From the NCBI RefSeq assembly GCF_000004075.3, contig NC_026655.2, positions 3,472,001 through 3,536,000 of the forward strand: DNA of 64,000 nt, read 5' to 3'. A model generated the notes under the pieces. That model was not told the origin of the DNA and did not search any database. It worked only from the letters and a program-made list of their open reading frames with translations. A program made the position numbers and the translations under genes. Of this stretch, positions 14,475-64,000 are shown piece by piece (within the stretch, counting starts at the first letter, position 1; each line of letters starts with the position of its first letter). The DNA comes from Cucumis sativus. Taxonomy: Eukaryota > Streptophyta > Magnoliopsida > Cucurbitales > Cucurbitaceae.

Positions 14475-17289
14475 TCATTCGTCCTCATCATCATCAGAGC
14501 TAGCATATGCCAAACCTAGTAAACTCTTGACTGGATTTTCAGCTTCTGTCTCTCCTTCAGTTTTGTTTGTTTTCACTAACGGCTTCTCTTTCACCTTTTC
14601 ATTGTCATTGTCATGCTTCGGATTTGATAAATCTGCTTGATTTGAAACTCTGGGTCTTTTGGGTTTAACTTCCACTACTCTTTTCAATAGATCTTGCTGT
14701 CTGCAATCCAGAAACCATTGATCACATATAAAATGAGCGAAGTACACACGCAATCGGCCTGATCCAATAGAAAACATTAAGCGTAGTGGGTATGCAACCA
14801 TAAGTGGTAAAATGCAGACAGAAACCTGATTCCACTCTTTGGTTTTGGCTCAACACGAAGGGCCAAGGGAACAGATGCGGGTGCAGAATCAGCCAAACTA
14901 GCAGCTTTGTATTGATTTTGTTAAGGAAATGACACAGTAAAACGAGGGGTTGAGAGATTATTTTATCTAAGAGGAGAGAACTTTTAGAAGGAAAAAGGAA
15001 GTCACCATAGCTACTTTGAATCCCTAATCAACATGAGAGTATCTTTAATTTCCATCACTACAAGTTTTCATAATGAAAAAAGGATATCTTGAATGCTGCA
15101 AAGGCTCGTTTCTCAGTGCGTCTAAGGAGGCGCTCTGCATCCTCCTCTGCTTCCATCTGCTCCTTAAGATAGAGCAAATCATCACTGTCCAGGGCTGCAA
15201 ACTCCAAACTCGAGTTAAAATTAAGAATCCAAAACTAGTATCAAGAATTGTTAGAGGATGCACAAACAAACAAAGAGACAGAGACAGAGAGTGTTACCGC
15301 CTCGTCCATGAAGGTAACCTCCACGTTCTCCTGCAACCTCCTGCATCTGCTTGTATCAGCCACCCGGTAAGAAAAGCCAAGATCCCTGCCAGGGCATGTT
15401 ATTAGAAAACTTTCCTGAGAATTTCACAAGAGAAACCAAAGAACTTGAAAACCAAGTACAACAAATATTACACTACTAACAAGGCATAAGTAGAAAATGT
15501 GGGAAACCTGCAGATAACCTAATTCTACTGGGAATGTGATTTTTTTTTTATATAAAAGGCCACTTCTTCCGGAAATGAAATGGTTTTCTTGACAAGTACA
15601 GATACAACTTAGGCTAGTTCTCGCCTTCATTGAAACAAAATATTCGTCTCCTTGTGAAAGTGAGTACAAAAATGATTAAAAGAGAGGAACTCTTGCAAAG
15701 AACCAAGGCTAAAAATTAAAATTTAAATCTAGGTCACCTGGATATATTGGTTATCTGTATCTATAAATTCAACAACTCGTGACTCTAAACAGCTTGGGAA
15801 AATTAACAAAAGTATCAATACTGCAGATACAGCTGATGATCAGGGAATCAATTGCTTGGAACAGGGATCCATACCACTAAACCAACCTTTAGGTCACGCT
15901 TGAGATAACCCTGTTCATACTTAGAAATAGATTTGGGATTTGACCTTCTTTGTAAGATGTAATCAGCACACGAGAACAAGCACATGGAAATTTAAAGCTC
16001 AAGCTGGCTCTACCAAAAGCAGTCAGCTGTTAAGTTTTCAATGTTCTATTTATGAGACATTTAAAAATAAAACATTCCAAGTTTAAGAAATGCTGGCAAA
16101 TCAGAGAAGCATGGAAGCTCTATCCAGAATGCCAATCTTCCTATCCAAATCTATCACTGTCAAAGAAAGTCAAGAAATAGACAACAATAAACAGAACGAG
16201 GCAACAAAAGTTTAATAACAATTTCTTAAATCAGCAAATAACAAGGGATAATAAGCAATATATAGTCATTTACGGTCCCATAGGTTGGCCATATCATAAA
16301 TAATGGATTATATAACTCTCTCAGATCAAATTCATTGTAAATTCCTACACTACAAAGATAGCGTTTTTTAATTCTTTCTTTCCTTTTTACATCTATATTT
16401 TTGGAGCCCTAATTCTACGTTCATGACCCACCTCGGAAATCATCAGAGAGGCTTAGCAGTTAGCCCACCCAATGCTAGCTCCAAGAGATGGTTTAACACT
16501 TTCTTGAGTTTTTCATGAAGACCTAAGTTGAAAACTTGGAAGTTGAGTGATATAACGTACTCATAGAAATCAACTGTTCAAGAAATCCAAAGAAGATGAG
16601 TGCAACTTCATATTTGCCAAACTTAAGAAAGTAGGGGGACATTGAGTAAATACACAAATCACAAGTAAATTACTGCATTAAAAAAACAATAAATTGCAGT
16701 TTTACGCAAAAGGAGGGATTTATTGGATCAATTCGTTTGTGCTGTGTCTTCTTATTACGATCGTATAGAAAGAATAAGAATGCCGCCAACAGTAATGAAC
16801 ATCATCAAGCTGATAGTCAATTTCCTCCAATTTTTTCTATGCAATCGATGCAGCGTCTTATTACAACCAGTAAGAGTGTTATTAAGAAAACAAACTCTTA
16901 AGAAATTCTCAAGTTACACCTTGAGATTGCTCAGTCCAATTAGGAAAAACGTTAACTCAATAAACCAACAAATGATTATACGATGAACAAAGAAAGATAG
17001 AGAAGCTAAATAAAAGGAAACTTATTGATGAAGAAAGAAACACGAAAAAAGTTGGCTTAGGCAAAATTGCGCTAACCTTCGCAACCATCCGTTGAAAGGT
17101 AATATCTTCATCGTCAATCTTATCTTTCCCTTTACCCCATTTCTTGTCTGCAATTATAAGAGCAATGGGAATGGGGGGTCAGAAAAACACAAAATAAGAA
17201 TAAGAATCAAAGGCCCAGTAAGATAATTAAATGTGGAAACCTTTTGGGTCTGAGAGATTGGTGTATTCACGAACTTCTTTCCCAGCCAT
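14475..17289 (-). CDS. FAM192A/NIP30 (Fyv6 N-terminal domain) homologue
   Basis: A nuclear protein whose animal relative (PSME3IP1/PIP30) binds the proteasome activator PA28-gamma; yeast Fyv6 is a splicing factor. The plant role is not established. Exons: 17289-17241, 17147-17077, 15346-15298, 15194-15088, 14908-14826 and 14700-14475, giving 194 residues. Visible blocks: MAGKEVREYTNLSDPK, DKKWGKGKDKIDDEDITFQR, MQEVAGERGGYLHGRGALDS, a coiled charged helix (LYLKEQMEAEEDAERLLRRT), then KAASLADSAPASVPLALRVE, a Lys-rich middle (LLKRVVEVKPKRPRV) and a C-terminus with LLGLAYASSDDDEDE, which matches the family's short acidic tail. The fourth intron is of AT-AC type (see separate entry); all others are GT-AG. 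Intron 2 is long (1.73 kb). Confidence 0.88.
14909..15087 (-). other. U12-type AT-AC intron in the FAM192A-like gene
   Basis: On the minus strand exon 4 ends TTCAAG and the intron opens ATATCCTTTTT (15087-15077), the textbook U12 5' splice site. It closes AATCAATAC (ending at 14909). A consensus U12 branch site TTCCTTAAC lies at plus 14920-14928, about 11 bases before the acceptor, in the narrow range that U12 introns use. Splicing joins AAFK to KAASLAD in frame. No GT-AG alternative fits: reading on gives ISFFHYENL and a stop. Length is 179 bases. Confidence 0.93.
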
Positions 17290-25757: not shown

Positions 25758-25792
25758 TTGTGAGAGGGTCGGTTCATTTGGATCCTATAAAC

Positions 25793-27109
25793 ATGTTGGA
25801 GGGTCCATCTTATCTCATCTCGAGGGACTTGCCTAGCTCTTGCGAACAAGAGAGCAAGTGGGTTTACAATACTTTCCGTGTGATTGAGATGACGAATAAG
25901 AAGCATCACTTAGAAGATATGGAACAACCTTCAGCGAAAAAGTTATGCAAGTTGATAGACGGTGCTCATAATGAAAGGGCAGATTTAAATCTTCCAGCAA
26001 CCTTAGTTGACGATCAGGATAAGCAGCATTGCGGTGGAGACCAGTCGGATTCAGGTTCGTTGATCCACCAACTTGGTCGGGACATGTCAATTAATTGCCT
26101 CCTCTACTGCTCAAGATCAGAATATGGCTCAATTGCCTCATTGAATCGGGACTTCCGATCTCTTATTACAAGTGGTGAACTTTATAAACTACGGAGGCGG
26201 ATGGGCATCGTTGAACATTGGATTTACTTCTCCTGCAGCCTTCTTGAATGGGACGCATATGATCCAAACTCTAACCGTTGGATGCGTCTGCCTATAATGG
26301 CATCAAATGAATGTTTCATGTCATCGGATAAGGAGTCCTTGGCTGTTGGGACTGAACTTCTTGTTTTTGGGAAGGAAACGATGTCCCAAGTTATATATAG
26401 ATACAGTATTTTGAATAATACATGGTCATCTGGGATGAATATGAATACACCTAGATTTCTGTTTGGTTCCGCTAGTCTTGGCGAAGTTGCAATACTAGCT
26501 GGTGGTTGTGATCCAAAAGGGAACCTCCTGAACTCAGCCGAGCTTTATAATTCTGAGACAGGAACTTGGGTCACTCTTCCTAAAATGAACAAAGCAAGGA
26601 AAATGTGCTCTGCAGTATTTCTTGAGGGAAAGTTCTATGTGATTGGCGGAACTGGGGCAGGTAACACAACTCTTACTTGTGGTGAAGAATACGATTTGAA
26701 GACTCAGACGTGGCGTGAGATACCTAACATGTACCCGGGGCGAAATGCTGGAGATGGGGCTGGTGTGCCAGTTGCTGCAGTTGAGGCACCTCCTTTGGTT
26801 GCAGTAGTAAATGAAAATTTGTATGCTGCAGATTATGCACATAGGGAGGTGAAAAGATATGACAAGGCAAGACAATTGTGGGTGGCTGTAGGGCGATTGC
26901 CTGAGCGTGTGGTCTCAACAAATGGCTGGGGGTTGGCATTTAGGGCTTGTGGAGATCGACTAATCGTCATTGGTGGACCGAGGGCTTTAGGTGGACGTAT
27001 GATTGAGATATACTCTTGGGCCCCGGATCAAGGCCAGCTGCATTGGGGTGTGCTTGCCAGCAGGCAGTTAGGAAATTTTGTGTATAACTGTGCAGTCATG
27101 GGATGCTGA
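25793..27109 (+). CDS. F-box/kelch-repeat protein, SKIP11 type
   Basis: A likely substrate receptor of an SCF E3 ubiquitin ligase: the F-box binds SKP1/ASK and the kelch propeller binds the target (family knowledge). A single coding exon encodes 438 residues. The N-terminus MLEGPSYLISRDLPSSCEQE is the conserved opening of SKIP11 and At5g60570/At1g74510-type proteins, which fixes this ATG over the upstream in-frame GTG at 25760. The F-box is near residues 88-133 (SLIHQLGRDMSINCLLYCSR). Kelch repeats follow from about residue 150 to 420: WDAYDPNSNRWMRLP, EVAILAGGCDPKGN, KFYVIGGTGAGN and DRLIVIGGPRALGG show the paired glycines. It stops at TGA just after NCAVMGC. Identification to subfamily is secure; the exact orthologue is not. 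Confidence 0.93.
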   Translation: MLEGPSYLISRDLPSSCEQESKWVYNTFRVIEMTNKKHHLEDMEQPSAKKLCKLIDGAHNERADLNLPATLVDDQDKQHCGGDQSDSGSLIHQLGRDMSINCLLYCSRSEYGSIASLNRDFRSLITSGELYKLRRRMGIVEHWIYFSCSLLEWDAYDPNSNRWMRLPIMASNECFMSSDKESLAVGTELLVFGKETMSQVIYRYSILNNTWSSGMNMNTPRFLFGSASLGEVAILAGGCDPKGNLLNSAELYNSETGTWVTLPKMNKARKMCSAVFLEGKFYVIGGTGAGNTTLTCGEEYDLKTQTWREIPNMYPGRNAGDGAGVPVAAVEAPPLVAVVNENLYAADYAHREVKRYDKARQLWVAVGRLPERVVSTNGWGLAFRACGDRLIVIGGPRALGGRMIEIYSWAPDQGQLHWGVLASRQLGNFVYNCAVMGC

Positions 27110-34071: not shown

Positions 34072-34830
34072 TTAGTGAAGTGGCATATTAAATTTGTCAA
34101 GAATGACGTGGATGTTAGCCACGATGGCCAAGCTGTTGCTTACGTATTCTATGGACTTTTTCATCCTCCTCTTCACCTCTTCAAACGACGTCGCATCCAT
34201 CTCCTCCACTCCCTCCAAACAGCTTTCCTCATTCGTCATCGCACTGCTCATCCACGTCTGAATGTTCCCGATCTTACTCTCCGTCAACGTCTTCTCCCCG
34301 GAACCGCCTCTCATTTCTGCTACCGAATCATTGACTTGGCTAATTGCGTCTTCGATTTGGCTCTGGCAGTCCTTCAAAGCTGCTGCTGCTCCTCCGTCGC
34401 CCTCTCCACCTACGCTTTTTAGCCATCGGGACATATTGGAGAGCTCGTTTAGGGAAACTTGGAGAGAGAGGTTTAAAATGAGTTCGGGGTCGGGTTGGGG
34501 AGAGGAATTGAGAGAAAAGATTGAGGTGAAGCAGGAATTAGGGTAACGAGTTACGTTGCAGACGATGCTGATTGTGTGGGCAGCGTTATTAGATGATGAT
34601 TTGTTGTCGGGGGTGGAGTTGTGGATGTAGACTCCGACGATCAGACTGATGATTAGAGCGGTGAGGAGGAGGGCGGAGATGGCGGCGGCGAAGCGGAGTA
34701 GGAGAGAAAAATTGTGGTTGGTGGGGAATTTGGAGTTTGGTTTGGAGGGGGGTGGGGGAATTTGATGTTCGAGGTCGAGGTTGAGGTGAGTGAGTTTGCC
34801 ATAGCCTTTGAGAGCATTGATTTGATCCAT
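34072..34830 (-). CDS. membrane-anchored pectin methylesterase inhibitor (PMEI) domain protein, PME pro-region-like
   Basis: A PMEI-domain protein expected in the secretory pathway or wall, where such domains block pectin methylesterase or guide its export. A single exon encodes 252 residues. A cytosolic stretch with a Pro run (HQIPPPPSK) is followed by a hydrophobic anchor near residues 43-68 (FSLLLRFAAAISALLLTALI). The PMEI domain runs from about residue 86 to 245 with the four conserved Cys: ISIVCNVTRYPNSC, LKDC and NEESC. The end, SNSLAIVANIHVILDKFNMP, looks like the end of the pro-region of type I PMEs, just before their RRLL processing site, but a stop follows and no pectinesterase catalytic sequence is found downstream. 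So it is either a stand-alone PMEI or a PME that lost its enzyme half. The start ATG is the first one before the Pro-rich segment; an in-frame upstream extension exists but has no supporting start. Confidence 0.88.
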   Translation of the reverse strand: MDQINALKGYGKLTHLNLDLEHQIPPPPSKPNSKFPTNHNFSLLLRFAAAISALLLTALIISLIVGVYIHNSTPDNKSSSNNAAHTISIVCNVTRYPNSCFTSIFSLNSSPQPDPELILNLSLQVSLNELSNMSRWLKSVGGEGDGGAAAALKDCQSQIEDAISQVNDSVAEMRGGSGEKTLTESKIGNIQTWMSSAMTNEESCLEGVEEMDATSFEEVKRRMKKSIEYVSNSLAIVANIHVILDKFNMPLH

Positions 34831-34867
34831 GATTTTACAAATTGATCGGTTTCTGTTCAAATTTAGA

Positions 34868-34939
34868 GAAGGAAGGAAGGAAGGAAGGAAGTTCGTTCCT
34901 TTCAAGTTTGCGAAGGGAAAGGGAAAGGGAAAGGGAAAG
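34868..34939. repeat. (GGAA)n and (GGGAAA)n tracts in PMEI leader
   Basis: About five GGAA units lie at 34868-34890 and four GGGAAA units at 34914-34939. On the sense strand of the PMEI-like gene they are pure pyrimidine (TTCC)n and (TTTCCC)n within 120 bases of the ATG. Confidence 0.88.
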
Positions 34940-35039
34940 TCAAAGATAAACCCACAGTTTTCATTTATTGTACACATCAACGTGTGGGGATTTGATTTTT
35001 CAATGAGATGGTTAAGATTTGGGCTGAGTTGCCACTAAA

Positions 35040-43854: not shown

Positions 43855-45689
43855 TTACGAGACGCCGGTGTCCGGCGCTGCCCCATGCGGTGGATTTTGG
43901 GTGGCATAGATATTCAAGTGTCCATTATGATCATCATCATCATCATCATGATCGTTGTTCAAGTTTCCACGTCGTGCAGCTCCGGCAGTGGGTCCCAAAG
44001 AGAGTGGCTTTCCTGGGAGGAGCGTCAATGGAGCAGGGCCGCCGAGAATATTATTCGACAAACGTAAGCCACCGGAGGGTGAGGGTTGTCCTGATCTGAA
44101 TAAAGAGCCGTCTTGATTAGCCGACTGAAGCCTCCATAAAGGGTCAACTCCGCTGGCGAGTAATTGGTTGTTGGGGTCGGAAAGCATCCAAAAGTTTGCC
44201 GGAATAGTAGTGGGGGGGACTACTCCGGTGGTGGTGGATTGGTGAAGATGGTACTGATGATCTTCTTTTGGTAATTGTGTCGTAATTTGAACCATATTAT
44301 TCATTGCTTCAGAGTTGAATCCCATCACTGAACAACTTTAATCATATTCCATTAGCCCTAATTAACTTCTCCCTTTCAATTATGCATTTACACACTTTGT
44401 TTATATAATATATATATATAGCTCAATCATTTCATGGGAATAATACATAATAGTAAGCCAAATGAAGGAAGGTCATGAGACATCATTCTTTTTATATACT
44501 TCATCTTCTTAGCCCTAATTTTTCTTTCTAATTATTTGTTAGTGAAATAAAGATCCCATTTTTGTTTTTCATGGATCTTGATTCTTGAGTGAGAGAGGAA
44601 GGAAAAATACCCTTTTGTTTATCTAGTCCTATTTGATAAATTAGTATAACCATTTTGATTTTAGAAATTGTTTTCTTCCACAATTAATTACTCATGGCTT
44701 TCATTTTTGTTATATAATATATAAACAGCTAAAATTTTCAGCCAATTTTAAGAAATAAGTTTCAAAAAATTACTTTATTTTTTTAGTTTTCACAAAAATT
44801 GGTTTTGATTTTCAAAAACACTCTTGAAATTTAGATACAACAAAATACATAGTAGATCTTAATGATATTTATAGACTTAGTTTTCAAAAACTAACTAGTA
44901 ATCAAATGGTATTGGTATGCTGTAGTTTTATTTTTGAAATTAAGTGTATAAGATTTGTTCATTCCTACTCTTCACAAATGTTTCGATATTGAAGTAAAGA
45001 TTTGAAAACTGGAAAAAAGAACAAACTAATTAAAAATCAAATGGTTATTTCTTAGAGACTTTTTTTTTTTTTTTTTTTAGCTACAAACCAAGAACATCTT
45101 AACCTTGCAACTCAATATTGGAAAGAATTTAAATTTAACTCTAATGGGAAAGATTTAGAAAGAGAAAAAAAACCCAAGAGGACTTCTTAAAATGAACATT
45201 TGAAAGGATGTGTTATGGAAATGAATGATATATAGATATTTTAAAAGGTGTGTTCAGCCTACCTCCCGGGTGATAATAAGAAGAGGATCTTAGTTGAGAT
45301 GGTAAAGAAATGCTTGTAGCCGATCTTCTTAACGACGTATTAAGAGAGTTGAAGTTAGCCGGTATGGTTCCAGTTCCCGTTGCGGCGATAACAGCAGGCT
45401 CAGCCTGCTGAAGAAGCCATTCGATCGTTTCGCCATCGGACTTGTGGCCAAGCTCACGAGTGAGCTGAAAAACTCTAGCAGCACAAAGAGCAGGCATTCG
45501 GGTGCGTCGGCCTCGACCATCGACTTTGGTGTGGCGATCCTTAGTAGAAGTCCTCTTAGGGGAGGGCTTCTTAGAGACGATCTCAAGAGGAGGTTGAGGA
45601 TCATATTCTTTCTTCTCTAGCAATTGAAGAGGGAAAGAAGCGTTTGAGCGATGGTTTTGGTGATAGTGAAGTTGGTCATTTCCTTCCAT
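43855..45689 (-). CDS. class I TCP transcription factor
   Basis: A plant growth and cell-division regulator that binds GTGGGNCC/TGGGCC-type sites. Exons 45689-45263 and 44327-43855 are joined by a 935-base intron (HPG|VMGFN), giving 299 residues. The TCP domain is at about residues 49-103: [40 protein letters not shown] and [20 protein letters not shown]. The basic region lacks the four extra residues of class II, so it is class I (PCF). The conserved TIPANF follows the domain. The C-terminal exon has [11 protein letters not shown], a Gly/Pro/Ser-rich part, [11 protein letters not shown] and an Asp-rich stretch ([14 protein letters not shown]). Most class I genes have no intron in the coding region, so this intron is notable. 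The 3' border CCGGGAG|GTAGGC and acceptor TTGTTCAG|TGATGG preserve the frame. Confidence 0.93.
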
Positions 45690-46890: not shown

Positions 46891-48260
46891 TTAGGTAGTA
46901 GAATAGTAAGAAATGTTGATGATATCTTGAGGGTTAGAGGGAGGGTGAGTTTTGTTTCTCAATCTTAATTGAAGGTACTCCTTGTAGATGAAAGATTTGT
47001 AGTTTGGTGGTTGGTCAATGTGGGTAGTGAAATGTGGCAATGGCTGCACCAGTTTGTCTCCTCCAATGTTGTAGAAAAATGCATAAGAATGACGCTCTCT
47101 CCCTTCCTGTCTCACCACCCGATGGCTTGCGCTCTTATACCTATCGTTGCTCAATACCTTACCCACATATGTATATGAATTTTAATTATATTGTCTTACT
47201 CACAACAACAAACACATAATCATATAAATTATTGTGAATAGAAATATAGAACGGAAATGGAAAGTAAAGGAAACCTGAATGACATCTCCAACGTTGATAA
47301 CAAGAGTATTTTGGTTGGGAATAATTGGGATCCATTGATGATCTTCTGTTTTAACCTCAAGGCCTCCAACTTCATCTTGAAACAACAAAGTGATGAAATT
47401 CACATCCTTATGTTCTCTAAGTCCAACATTTTCAATCTCACTTGCATTTGGATATCTGAATGTCGACATTAAATCCCATTTCCTGTCGTTATTGTATTCA
47501 CTTAGGAAGTTTGGTGGAAGCCCTAAGCATTCGTTTATAATATTTTCTATTACTGAAGCTGTCTTCACAAAACACGAGAATAACTCCTCCACTACTTCCC
47601 TGCAATTACATACAAAAGAATGATTCAGTAATAGTATATATAGAGTCTATCAGTTATAGAGGTTTGTTACTGATATAACAAATTTAGAGAAAATGAACAT
47701 AAACATCAAAACCAAAAAGCAAAGAGAATATAATGATTATGAAATATGGAGAGTATATATAAAATTGATGAGTCTGAATGAAAACATACAATTACGGATA
47801 TAATATATAGCAAAAGAGAGAGTAAAAGTAAAAGCTAAGAGAGAAGAAATTAAAACCTAAAGCCTTGAGGATGGGAAGGGAAGACATTGAAGGTTGAATG
47901 AGGAGGAAACATCATAAAGAATTCATTTTTATCAGGAGAGTGGTCCGGCTGGCGGCCATAACCAGCCGGCATAGGAGCTCCGGGGAGAGGGCTTGCCTGA
48001 AGTTTACGATCCAAAGGGTATCCAAAAAACTGATTTGATAACAAAAGTGCTTTTTGCATAAGGTGAAGTGGAACACCATGGTTCACTACTTGAAAAAAAC
48101 CAAACTCAGAACAAGCTTTTCCAATTATTTCAATTGCAGCTGCCTTCTTCTTCTTTTGATCATCATCATCATCATCGTATGAATATGATCCTTGATCTAA
48201 TTCTTTCAAAAATGGAGAAAGATCAGCTGTGGGGATCGTTATTTCTTCTTTATTCACCAT
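46891..48260 (-). CDS. 2-oxoglutarate/Fe(II)-dependent dioxygenase (DOXC type), copy 1
   Basis: A soluble oxygenase that would use Fe(II), 2-oxoglutarate and O2 on a small-molecule substrate; the substrate cannot be told from sequence. Exons: 48260-47857, 47599-47275 and 47157-46891, 331 residues. The N-terminal DIOX_N region has GKACSEFGFFQVVNHGVPLH. The catalytic double-stranded helix has the iron ligands H-x-D in REHKDVNFITLLFQDEVGG and the second His in YKSASHRVVRQ, plus the 2-oxoglutarate Arg and Ser in ERHSYAFF. An Asp run then Lys run (YDDDDDDQKKKK, about residues 28-39) is unusual. The neighbour at 49687-50915 has the same three-exon structure and phases, so the two arose by tandem duplication. 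Confidence 0.92.
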
Positions 48261-49689: not shown

Positions 49690-50915
49690 ACTGATCTCAT
49701 AATGTGTGATACGAATCTCATCTTCCACTCTAGAAGGTGGATGAGTTTTGTTCTTCAATCTCAAGGCTTGGTAATCTTTGAACTGAAATCCTTTGTATTT
49801 TGGTTTCTCTCCAATTTCTTCAGTGAACTGTGGCAATGGCTCAACCCATTTGTCTCCATGCAAATTATGGAAGAATGCATAAGAAAATCTCTCTTTTCCC
49901 TTTTGTCTCACAACTCTATGTGTTGCACTCTTGAATTTCTTGTTGCTCAGCACCTAATTACACCAAAACCCCACTTGATATCAGACATCCAAAAGCAGAC
50001 CACGATTCAGAATAAAGTTTGAAATTTTTTTACCTGAATTACATCTCCAATGTTGACTACTATGGCTCCTTCAACAGGAACCACTGGAATCCATTCCCCA
50101 TCTTTCCTTACTTGAAGGCCCCCAGTATCATCTTGGAATACCAAAGTAATACAGTTTCCATCTTCATGGTGAGTGAGTCCATTTTCACCTTCTTCAGTTG
50201 CAGAGAAGTAGTAAAGAGTTGTCATGAAATCCCAGCTTCTGTCATTGTTGTATTGTTTCAGAAAATCAGGAGGAAGCCCCAAACTTTCATTGACAATGCT
50301 CTCTAGAAGCAAGCAAACCTTGCTTAGTTTCTTGAACATTTCCTCCAACAGTTCCCTATAAACAATTTCAATGTCATGAATCAAAAGGCTTTTAACATGA
50401 AACTTTTACTTTTGTCTCCTTAGAATTGTACAACATATAGAACAGATCCTGTTCAAGTAAAAGTCATAAAAGAGAACTTTTACTTAAAAATCAAAGGGAT
50501 GCAAAAGGAAAACTTACTTGAACTGTGGTGGCTCTTGAGGGTAAATATTGTAGTTAGATCCAGGAGGAAACACAAGAACATATTCATTCTTGTCGACACA
50601 ATTTTTCTTCTGCTTGTTGAAACCAGCAAGAAGAGGTGCTCCTGGCTTGGAGCTATATTTGAGTTTTATATCATCAGGGTAATGGAAAAAAGTTCTTGAC
50701 AGTTCCAAAGCTTCTTCAAGAAACTCAATGGGGACTCCATGATTTACAATTTGGAAGAAGCCATAGCTAGAACAAGCTTGGTATATGGTTTCAAAGGCCT
50801 TCTTTTTGGCTTCAGTTTCATTTTGTGCGGAGAAAACAGAAAGGTCCACAGTTGGAATGCCTGTGTCTTTAGCCATGTCAAAGTGAAATGTGAAAGTTTG
50901 GTTCTTTAGGTCCAT
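49687..50915 (-). CDS. 2-oxoglutarate/Fe(II)-dependent dioxygenase (DOXC type), copy 2
   Basis: Exons: 50915-50518, 50355-50034 and 49953-49687, 328 residues; junction phases equal those of copy 1. Key features: IYQACSSYGFFQIVNHGVPI, iron ligands in THHEDGNCITLVFQDDTGG and FKSATHRVVRQ, and the 2-oxoglutarate-binding Arg/Ser in ERFSYAFF. The C-terminus RLKNKTHPPSRVEDEIRITH parallels RLRNKTHPPSNPQDIINISY of copy 1. The first Met gives a 13-residue leader before MAKDTGIPTVDLS; the second Met (50876) aligns better with the start of copy 1 (MVNKEEITIPTADLS) and may be the true start. The substrate is unknown. All catalytic residues are present, so it should be active. Confidence 0.92.
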
Positions 50916-62653: not shown

Positions 62654-64000
62654 TCAAACACTTTCCATCATAAGATGCTTCAATTCATTGCTATCATGCT
62701 GCACCCTTCCAGTAATTTCCAGACAAATGCCTTTTTTGCCAACGGCTTTGTTTGAGTTTCTGTCTTTGGTGGATTTCTCTCTGGGGCCTGGATCTAAAAA
62801 GACAGGATGTATTTGAAGAGATGGATTTGGTTTAATTCTATTCACTTCTCTTTCATCTGCTGGCCGCATGATATTGGTGTGTGATTCAAGTTCAGAAGAA
62901 TCATCTTCATTCAAAAGAACCTACAGAAGATTAAATTCATTAAGCTAAAAACAAGAAGATAAGAGAGAAAAATGGAGAATGAGATTTCAATATTTCCAGA
63001 AAAAATCAAAAGATCAAATCTTCCAAAATCCTAAGCAATAACAATGTGCAGAGAGGGATACTCGAGAAGCTAACTTTCCAATGATATATTTGAGGGCAAG
63101 GAACGGTGGTCTATCCATATGCTGTTGGTTAGAACTAAAACATAGTTAAATAAAGAGGATTACCTTGCGGCCAACCAAGTCAAAGGTTACAACCACTTTG
63201 TTTCGTTTAGCTCGTTCAGCCTCTTCAATCTCCTCTTGTTTCTTTTTCAAAAGCTCCTTTTCCTTAAACCAAAAAAAAAAAAAAAATGGTCAGTCTAATC
63301 TGTAGTACAAAATTAGAGAATCCATTGACTGATGCTGCACCAAATTGACATACCTCATTAGACAACCAGCTATTGCCCTCAATCTGGTAATAATCACTTT
63401 GATCATCGATTACAGATGTTCTTGCAGCAGAGTTTCTGTCATATTCAACTAACCTTTTTGCATAAGCTTCAGCTGCTGCTTCAGCATCTGAAAGTGGGGT
63501 AAAACCTTCATCCATACCAGCATACGTGCTCCCTTCTCTCAGCACAAGGGATCCACAAAAACTGCATGGGCCTTCTCCCTCTTGTTCACATACAATCTTG
63601 CCACATGATAGACAATTGCTCACTAATCTATGACGACGAGCTTGGCATGAACATGGTTTTCCTTGCTGGAACACAATTGATCCTTTGGCAGCTTCAGCCA
63701 GAGAAACAACTTTGGTAGCCTTCTTCTTTCTAGAAGAACTTTGATTCCCTTTGCCAGATGATGAATTGCGAGTATCTGATGAAACCTGGCTTTCCACGTT
63801 ACTAGAGGTAGTAGCCTTCTTTGGTTCTATCTCTTTACTGGAGATAGAAATGGTTTTTGGTGTTTTAACAGGTTTCTTGGATCCGCCAAAAGAAACTTCA
63901 TGGGAGGGTGGTTTGACATAGGTATGTAAGGTTGAAGTTGGAACATCCAACGTTTTGCTGCAGAGGTCAGAATGACCTCGCAGCCGCAAATACTCATTTA
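62654..64000 (-). CDS. ASC-1/TRIP4-like transcription cointegrator, N-terminus beyond window
   Basis: A homologue of activating signal cointegrator 1, which in animals forms a complex with ASCC1-3 and acts in transcription and in ribosome quality control. Visible exons: 64000-63354 (open at the window edge), 63262-63164 and 62920-62654. The C2HC5 zinc finger is in the first: GKPCSCQARRHRLVSNCLSC, GKIVCEQEGEGPCSFCGSLV. Before it is a Lys/Ser-rich linker with KGSIVFQQ; after it FTPLSDAEAAAEAYAKRLVE and a helix EKELLKKKQEEIEEAERAKR. The C-terminal exon has VTFDLVGRKVLLNEDDSSEL, NPSLQIHPVFLDPGPREK and CLEITGRVQHDSNELKHL, ending MMESV. No ASCH domain is visible; plant homologues may have it or not. 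The 5' exons lie outside the window, so length and start are unknown. Confidence 0.9.

Follow-up and report, generated by a model that had tools for sequence, protein, structure and literature searches.

A predicted U12-type AT-AC intron in a small single-copy gene of Cucumis sativus, and its possible distant resemblance to FAM192A

In the genome of Cucumis sativus, a stretch of 64,000 nucleotides (hereafter, the window) carries on its minus strand a small split gene, one intron of which appears to begin with AT and to end with AC. Two questions are raised by this locus, namely, whether this intron belongs to the class handled by the minor spliceosome, and which protein the gene encodes, the first-pass annotation having read it as plant FAM192A/NIP30. 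As judged from its sequence, the locus very probably harbours an ordinary AT-AC intron of the U12 type, which would be removed by the minor spliceosome, in a single-copy plant gene that is not the FAM192A orthologue. The features discussed below are collected in Table 1.

Table 1. Positions in the window of the predicted gene, its AT-AC intron and neighbouring genes.
Feature	Position	Strand	Basis and remarks
Exon 1 (coding part from ATG), 49 nt	17241..17289	minus	gene model
Exon 2, 71 nt	17077..17147	minus	gene model
Exon 3, 49 nt	15298..15346	minus	gene model
Exon 4, 107 nt, encodes ALDSDDLLYLKEQ...AAFK	15088..15194	minus	gene model; sub-threshold similarity to the end of PF10187
Putative U12-type AT-AC intron (intron 4 of 5)	14909..15087	minus	179 nt, phase 0
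5' splice site ATATCCTTTTT	15077..15087	minus	sequence; complementary to the genome's own U11
In-frame TAG if the intron is retained	15058..15060	minus	sequence; open frame 15058..15234
Branch site TTCCTTAAC	14920..14928	minus	sequence; pairs with the genome's U12
3' splice site AC	14909..14910	minus	sequence
Exon 5, 83 nt, KAASLADSAP...	14826..14908	minus	gene model
Exon 6, 226 nt including TGA stop, acidic C-terminus GLAYASSDDDEDE	14475..14700	minus	gene model
Kelch-repeat protein	25760-27109	plus	Pfam
PMEI-domain protein	34072-34980	minus	Pfam
TCP transcription factor	45213-45689	minus	Pfam
2OG-Fe(II) oxygenase and DIOX_N pieces	47200-47592, 50514-50915	minus	Pfam
C2HC5 zinc finger, TRIP4 type	63264-63989	minus	Pfam

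The six-exon model is open throughout and yields a product of 194 residues; its last two exons are supported by a single genome, and the four introns other than the AT-AC one are GT-AG. When the genome (226.6 Mb, 88 contigs) was searched with this protein, six matches were obtained at E<=10, one per exon and all at the gene's own locus, and neither a retrocopy nor a paralogue was found elsewhere in the same genome at this threshold. The full-length protein retrieved nothing at E<=10 from the PDB, nor from Pfam, where the HMMER filters discard most weak matches, and it had no match in NCBIfam, a result of little weight given that this database was built for bacterial and archaeal proteins. Pattern searches yielded 53 matches in bacterial and archaeal genomes and six in viral contigs, with no relative among them, and no name for the gene was found in any plant. 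On this sequence evidence, the gene is a single-copy nuclear plant gene predicted to encode a small, charged and uncharacterised protein.

Read on the minus strand, the intron starts with ATATCCTTTTTTCA and finishes with ...CATTTCCTTAACAAAATCAATAC, and it is opened by ATATCCTT, the 5' site of U12 AT-AC introns. The U12 branch site, TTCCTTRAC, is located about 10-16 nt ahead of the 3' end of an intron; here, TTCCTTAAC stands 11 bases before the end, the terminal AC being counted in. Both the 5' site and the branch site fit the U12 consensus. Exon 4 terminates with ...GCATTCAAG and exon 5 opens with AAAGCTGCT, giving a phase 0 junction that reads AAFK/KAASL (the slash marks the join) and keeps the frame. 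The first-pass annotation had described an AT-AC intron with these signals and this in-frame junction, and in both respects it was right. By its sequence elements, the intron is thus assigned to the U12-type AT-AC introns, an already known kind. The same annotation had warned that a gene caller accepting only GT-AG introns would mis-model the gene, and this is indeed what the frame implies, the tenth codon of the retained intron (TAG, 15060..15058) being a stop preceded by nine intron-encoded codons. For annotation practice, the lesson is that a model restricted to GT-AG or GC-AG introns would truncate or mis-join this gene.

With regard to chance, the strict motif pair (ATATCCTT...TTCCTTRAC...AC) occurs at one place on the two strands of the window, which is this intron, and it was absent from 3.84 Mb of simulated sequence (one strand). 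A loosened pair (ATATCC, TCCTTRA) recovered the same single place in the window and 43 places in the simulated 3.84 Mb, about the chance rate, so that the full motifs are what counts. According to a Markov estimate assuming introns of roughly 60-500 nt, strict pairs are expected by chance about 0.0002 times on the gene's strand, 0.008 times in the window and about 30 times in the genome. The AT-AC reading is strengthened by this pair being unique in the window and unexpected there by chance. Genome-wide, the strict pattern with gap lengths near those of this intron is barely above the reversed control (five matches, at four distinct places, vs one), and the 11-base 5' site shows no enrichment when taken by itself (701 places vs 728 in the reversed control). 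Motif matches by themselves therefore prove no intron, and the coding frame carries most of the proof. Following in silico splicing of the four places, only the window intron and C4:3510383-3510552 (on contig C4) stayed open, for tens of codons. At the window junction, an unused second frame is open for longer than the one used (68 + 62 codons vs 49 + 43), and openness alone is consequently no proof. The place on contig C4 represents a second candidate U12-type AT-AC intron (ATATCCTTTAG...TTCCTTGAC...AC), where one frame remains open across the join, over 22 codons on its 5' side and 70 on its 3' side.

Other ways of joining exons 4 and 5 were enumerated with the outer exon ends fixed, introns of at least 60 nt and the whole frame open. 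This gave 38 frame-keeping joins, namely, 2 GT-AG, 14 GC-AG, 12 AT-AC and 10 AT-AG. An ATATCC 5' site is used by three of them; the two besides the join described above terminate in AG, at 60 and 72 nt downstream and far from the branch motif, and were rejected. We consider it very unlikely that the true intron is of the GT-AG or GC-AG type, or that the frame ends at the TAG, with the AT-AC signals being coincidental. Such a reading can draw on the two GT-AG and 14 GC-AG combinations, which leave the frame open, and on the number of chance AT-AC motif pairs expected at genome scale over a wide length range (one in the reversed control). However, both GT-AG joins depend on poor donors (CTT/GTAGTG and GTA/GTGATG) and on one common acceptor, CAAAGCTGCTAG, which is devoid of a pyrimidine tract. 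The AT-AC match, in turn, is placed exactly where a phase-preserving join is required. Processing of the AT-AC intron by the major spliceosome has a precedent in human SCN4A intron 21, as described in the accessible part of PMC2831892, but is highly unlikely here, where the 5' site and the branch site both match the U12 consensus.

The same genome carries genes for minor-spliceosome snRNAs: genome searches located a U12 gene on contig C5 (90.4 bits), a U11 gene on contig C2 (76.6 bits) and 12 U6atac matches, of which the best two scored 100.7 and 91 bits. These two are the strong U6atac-like places (>90 bits), the ten weaker ones (33-62 bits) being perhaps pseudogenes. No U4atac was found in the genome, a result that says little since the same search was empty in every control genome, and Rfam returned no match on the window at the gathering score. 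In U11, a run of 8 pairs, 7 of them Watson-Crick, is formed with ATCCTTTT at the 5' site, whereas the remaining four introns of the gene allow runs of 4-6. For U6atac, the margin is slight, with 7 pairs at the AT-AC intron vs 5-6 at the others. In U12, TAAGGAAA pairs with TTTCCTTA of the branch site through 8 Watson-Crick bases, and intron 2 of the gene also offers U12 a run of 9 pairs close to the acceptor, 8 of them Watson-Crick, so that pairing with U12 or U6atac alone does not discriminate. Counted against the AT-AC reading are the unspecific U12 pairing, together with phase 0, the 14 GC-AG joins, the open second frame and the narrow genome-wide margin of the motif pair over its control. 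Intron 2 (17076..15347, minus strand, 1730 nt, GT-AG) contains TTTTCTTAC shortly before its acceptor, a motif resembling a U12 branch site, but this intron has no U12-type 5' site.

Minor introns are bound by U11/U12 at the 5' site and the branch site, U6atac subsequently occupies the 5' site, and excision is carried out by the minor spliceosome. Applied to this gene, U11/U12 would recognise the two sites of the AT-AC intron, U6atac would replace U11 at the 5' site, and AAFK would be joined to KAASL by the minor spliceosome. Were the intron retained, translation would run through nine codons of it and then stop, with 232 nt left to the junction of exons 5 and 6. A stop this far upstream of an exon junction is, as a rule, taken to predict nonsense-mediated decay; the retained-intron transcript would likely be a target of this pathway, or would otherwise encode a truncated protein of 101 residues. 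Because a retained intron meets a stop, the output of the gene would depend on minor-spliceosome activity, as in other minor-intron genes. In human cells, limiting U6atac is reported to let minor introns act as switches (PMC3728624, part of the text), and AT-AN introns reportedly require CENATAC, while the AT-AC introns of Arabidopsis require DROL1 (PMC11039992, in the sections available). Genes of the DIM1 family were located at three places in the genome, with close copies on contigs C5 and C2 and a divergent one on contig C7 (C7:15231635-15232042); the sequence of the latter is compatible with a candidate DROL1/TXNL4B-like gene. With the sequence elements and the frame in place and the U11, U12 and U6atac genes present, we infer that the intron is actually spliced, that its retention leads to decay, and that its removal depends on the AT-AC-specific factors DROL1/TXNL4B and CENATAC.

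How rare such an intron is depends on the class to which it is compared. AT-AC accounts for about 0.06% of splice-site pairs in plants (PMC6310983, available part), and for 13-26% of the U12-type introns of maize, rice, soybean and Arabidopsis (Table 2 of PMC7367187, a source seen in excerpt). AT-AC is, in other words, a common subtype inside a rare intron class, and the first-pass statement that they form only a small part of the minor-spliceosome introns is overstated in view of these four plants. Phase 0 is less usual for minor introns, at about 22% according to the accessible text of PMC10639083. In other respects, the intron resembles the known U12 AT-AC introns of plants and animals, with which it shares the 5' site, the branch site and the AC end, and no mechanistic difference was found. 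An intron of SMYD2, ATATCCTTTA...TTTCCTTGAC...AGCAC, as given in the part of PMC7367187 consulted, has similar signals. As in these known cases, a single minor intron lies among GT-AG introns. CBP20 (PMC5932401, in part) is likewise a small gene with a single U12 intron, for which conservation across land plants has been reported, whereas the window intron is known from one genome. In a literature search for minor introns of cucumber, none of the papers among the matches listed contains 'Cucumis sativus', and the word 'Cucumis' is absent from the available portions of PMC10639083, PMC6310983 and PMC7367187.

As to the identity of the protein, the FAM192A/NIP30 name is not borne out. The N-terminal FVSE motif, or hook, is reported to be conserved in Fyv6, the yeast member of the family (PMC11651659, partial text). 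This motif is absent from the 194-residue translation and present in a gene of contig C5, which was found by searching the genome with a stretch of plant FAM192A. The C5 gene (C5:14174001-14182500, seven coding exons in our model) encodes, when spliced from the DNA, a protein of 213 residues that matches PF10187 at E 5.5e-16 (59.1 bits), and its residues 1-103 match the PSME3-interacting protein (PDB 7w59, chain X) at E 1.4e-5. Its six introns are all GT-AG, and none of them starts with RTATCC. The window protein has no match to this human FAM192A chain at E<=10, and a BLASTP comparison with residues 1-103 of the C5 protein gave E 8.7. Against the curated PF10187 cut-off of 20.2 bits, the full-length window protein has no match and its best fragment reaches 15.0 bits, where the C5 protein serves as the positive control. 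A direct PF10187 search of the genome missed even the true C5 gene, probably because its domain is split between exons, and is given no weight.

It is extremely unlikely, on these grounds, that the window gene is the plant FAM192A/NIP30 orthologue, with a minor intron in the gene of a second-step splicing factor; its residues 57-92 do match weakly the end of PF10187, but a clear FAM192A lies elsewhere in the genome, and orthology was discarded in view of this separate gene and the absent full-length matches. Since the window gene is not FAM192A, the link that the first-pass annotation had drawn between a minor intron and a splicing-factor gene loses its basis, and no literature linking NIP30 with a U12 intron was found. 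More generally, a family name read from a short charged stretch can mislead when the true member resides elsewhere in the genome.

A genuine, though very remote, similarity may nevertheless underlie the FAM192A name. The window gene might have diverged from a common ancestor with FAM192A/Fyv6 very long ago and have kept the end of the domain and the acidic tail, which we regard as possible, if doubtful; the two genes would then have a phase-0 intron in common, AT-AC and U12-type here, GT-AG and U2-type in FAM192A. When the translation of exons 1-4 is scanned, its residues 57-92 match positions 69-104 of the 104 in PF10187 at E 0.029, and the match persists at E 0.041 with the intron-encoded tail and at E 0.054 with 18 further residues. 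None of 18 block-shuffled controls (18 scanned out of 19 generated, local composition preserved) matches PF10187. However, all three matches lie under the curated cut-off, the full-length protein and a 93-residue fragment have none (3 of 5 versions match), and 3 of the 18 shuffles match some unrelated family at E 0.02-0.12, so that such E values are easily reached by chance. The position of the AT-AC intron, after K92, is the same codon boundary as that of FAM192A intron 5 after Q103 (1636 nt, GT-AG), both being phase 0 in the Pfam register. This is an independent hint, as such an agreement would arise by chance with a probability of about 0.03, but no further introns of the two genes coincide.

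Pairwise alignment of the two proteins is similarly divided. The local score of 73 is reached by 0.2% of 2000 whole-sequence shuffles, the global score of 87 by none of 2000, and, for the part around exon 4 that aligns without gaps, the score is equalled by 1% of 400 block shuffles. When the shuffling is confined to blocks of 6-30 residues, however, 4-26% of the shuffles attain the local score and 3-21% the global one. The probability assigned by hhalign is 0.6%, and the BLASTP value and the missing PDB match mentioned above also speak against a relationship. A KPK/KPQ stretch occurs in each protein, as does an acidic terminus containing GL.Y. FAM192A/PSME3IP1/NIP30 and Fyv6 thus resemble the window protein at most in a 36-residue stretch at the end of the domain, in their acidic C-terminus and, at the gene level, in the position of a single phase-0 intron, and differ from it by the FVSE motif and by the lack of significant full-length similarity. 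It appears rather unlikely from these comparisons that the window gene represents an overlooked paralogue of ancient origin and of the FAM192A/Fyv6 type, in which an ancestral phase-0 intron common to both is AT-AC here and GT-AG in FAM192A. If it did, a family of second-step splicing factors would contain two paralogues that differ naturally in the class of one intron, and a failure of minor splicing would truncate the window protein directly behind the helix common to both. The two genes would also provide a paired case of intron-class conversion, a process discussed in the available parts of PMC7367187 and PMC2831892.

Elsewhere in the window, a Pfam scan of eight reading frames gave a match for six, and the corresponding genes or gene pieces, from the Kelch-repeat protein to the TRIP4-type zinc finger, are those listed in Table 1.
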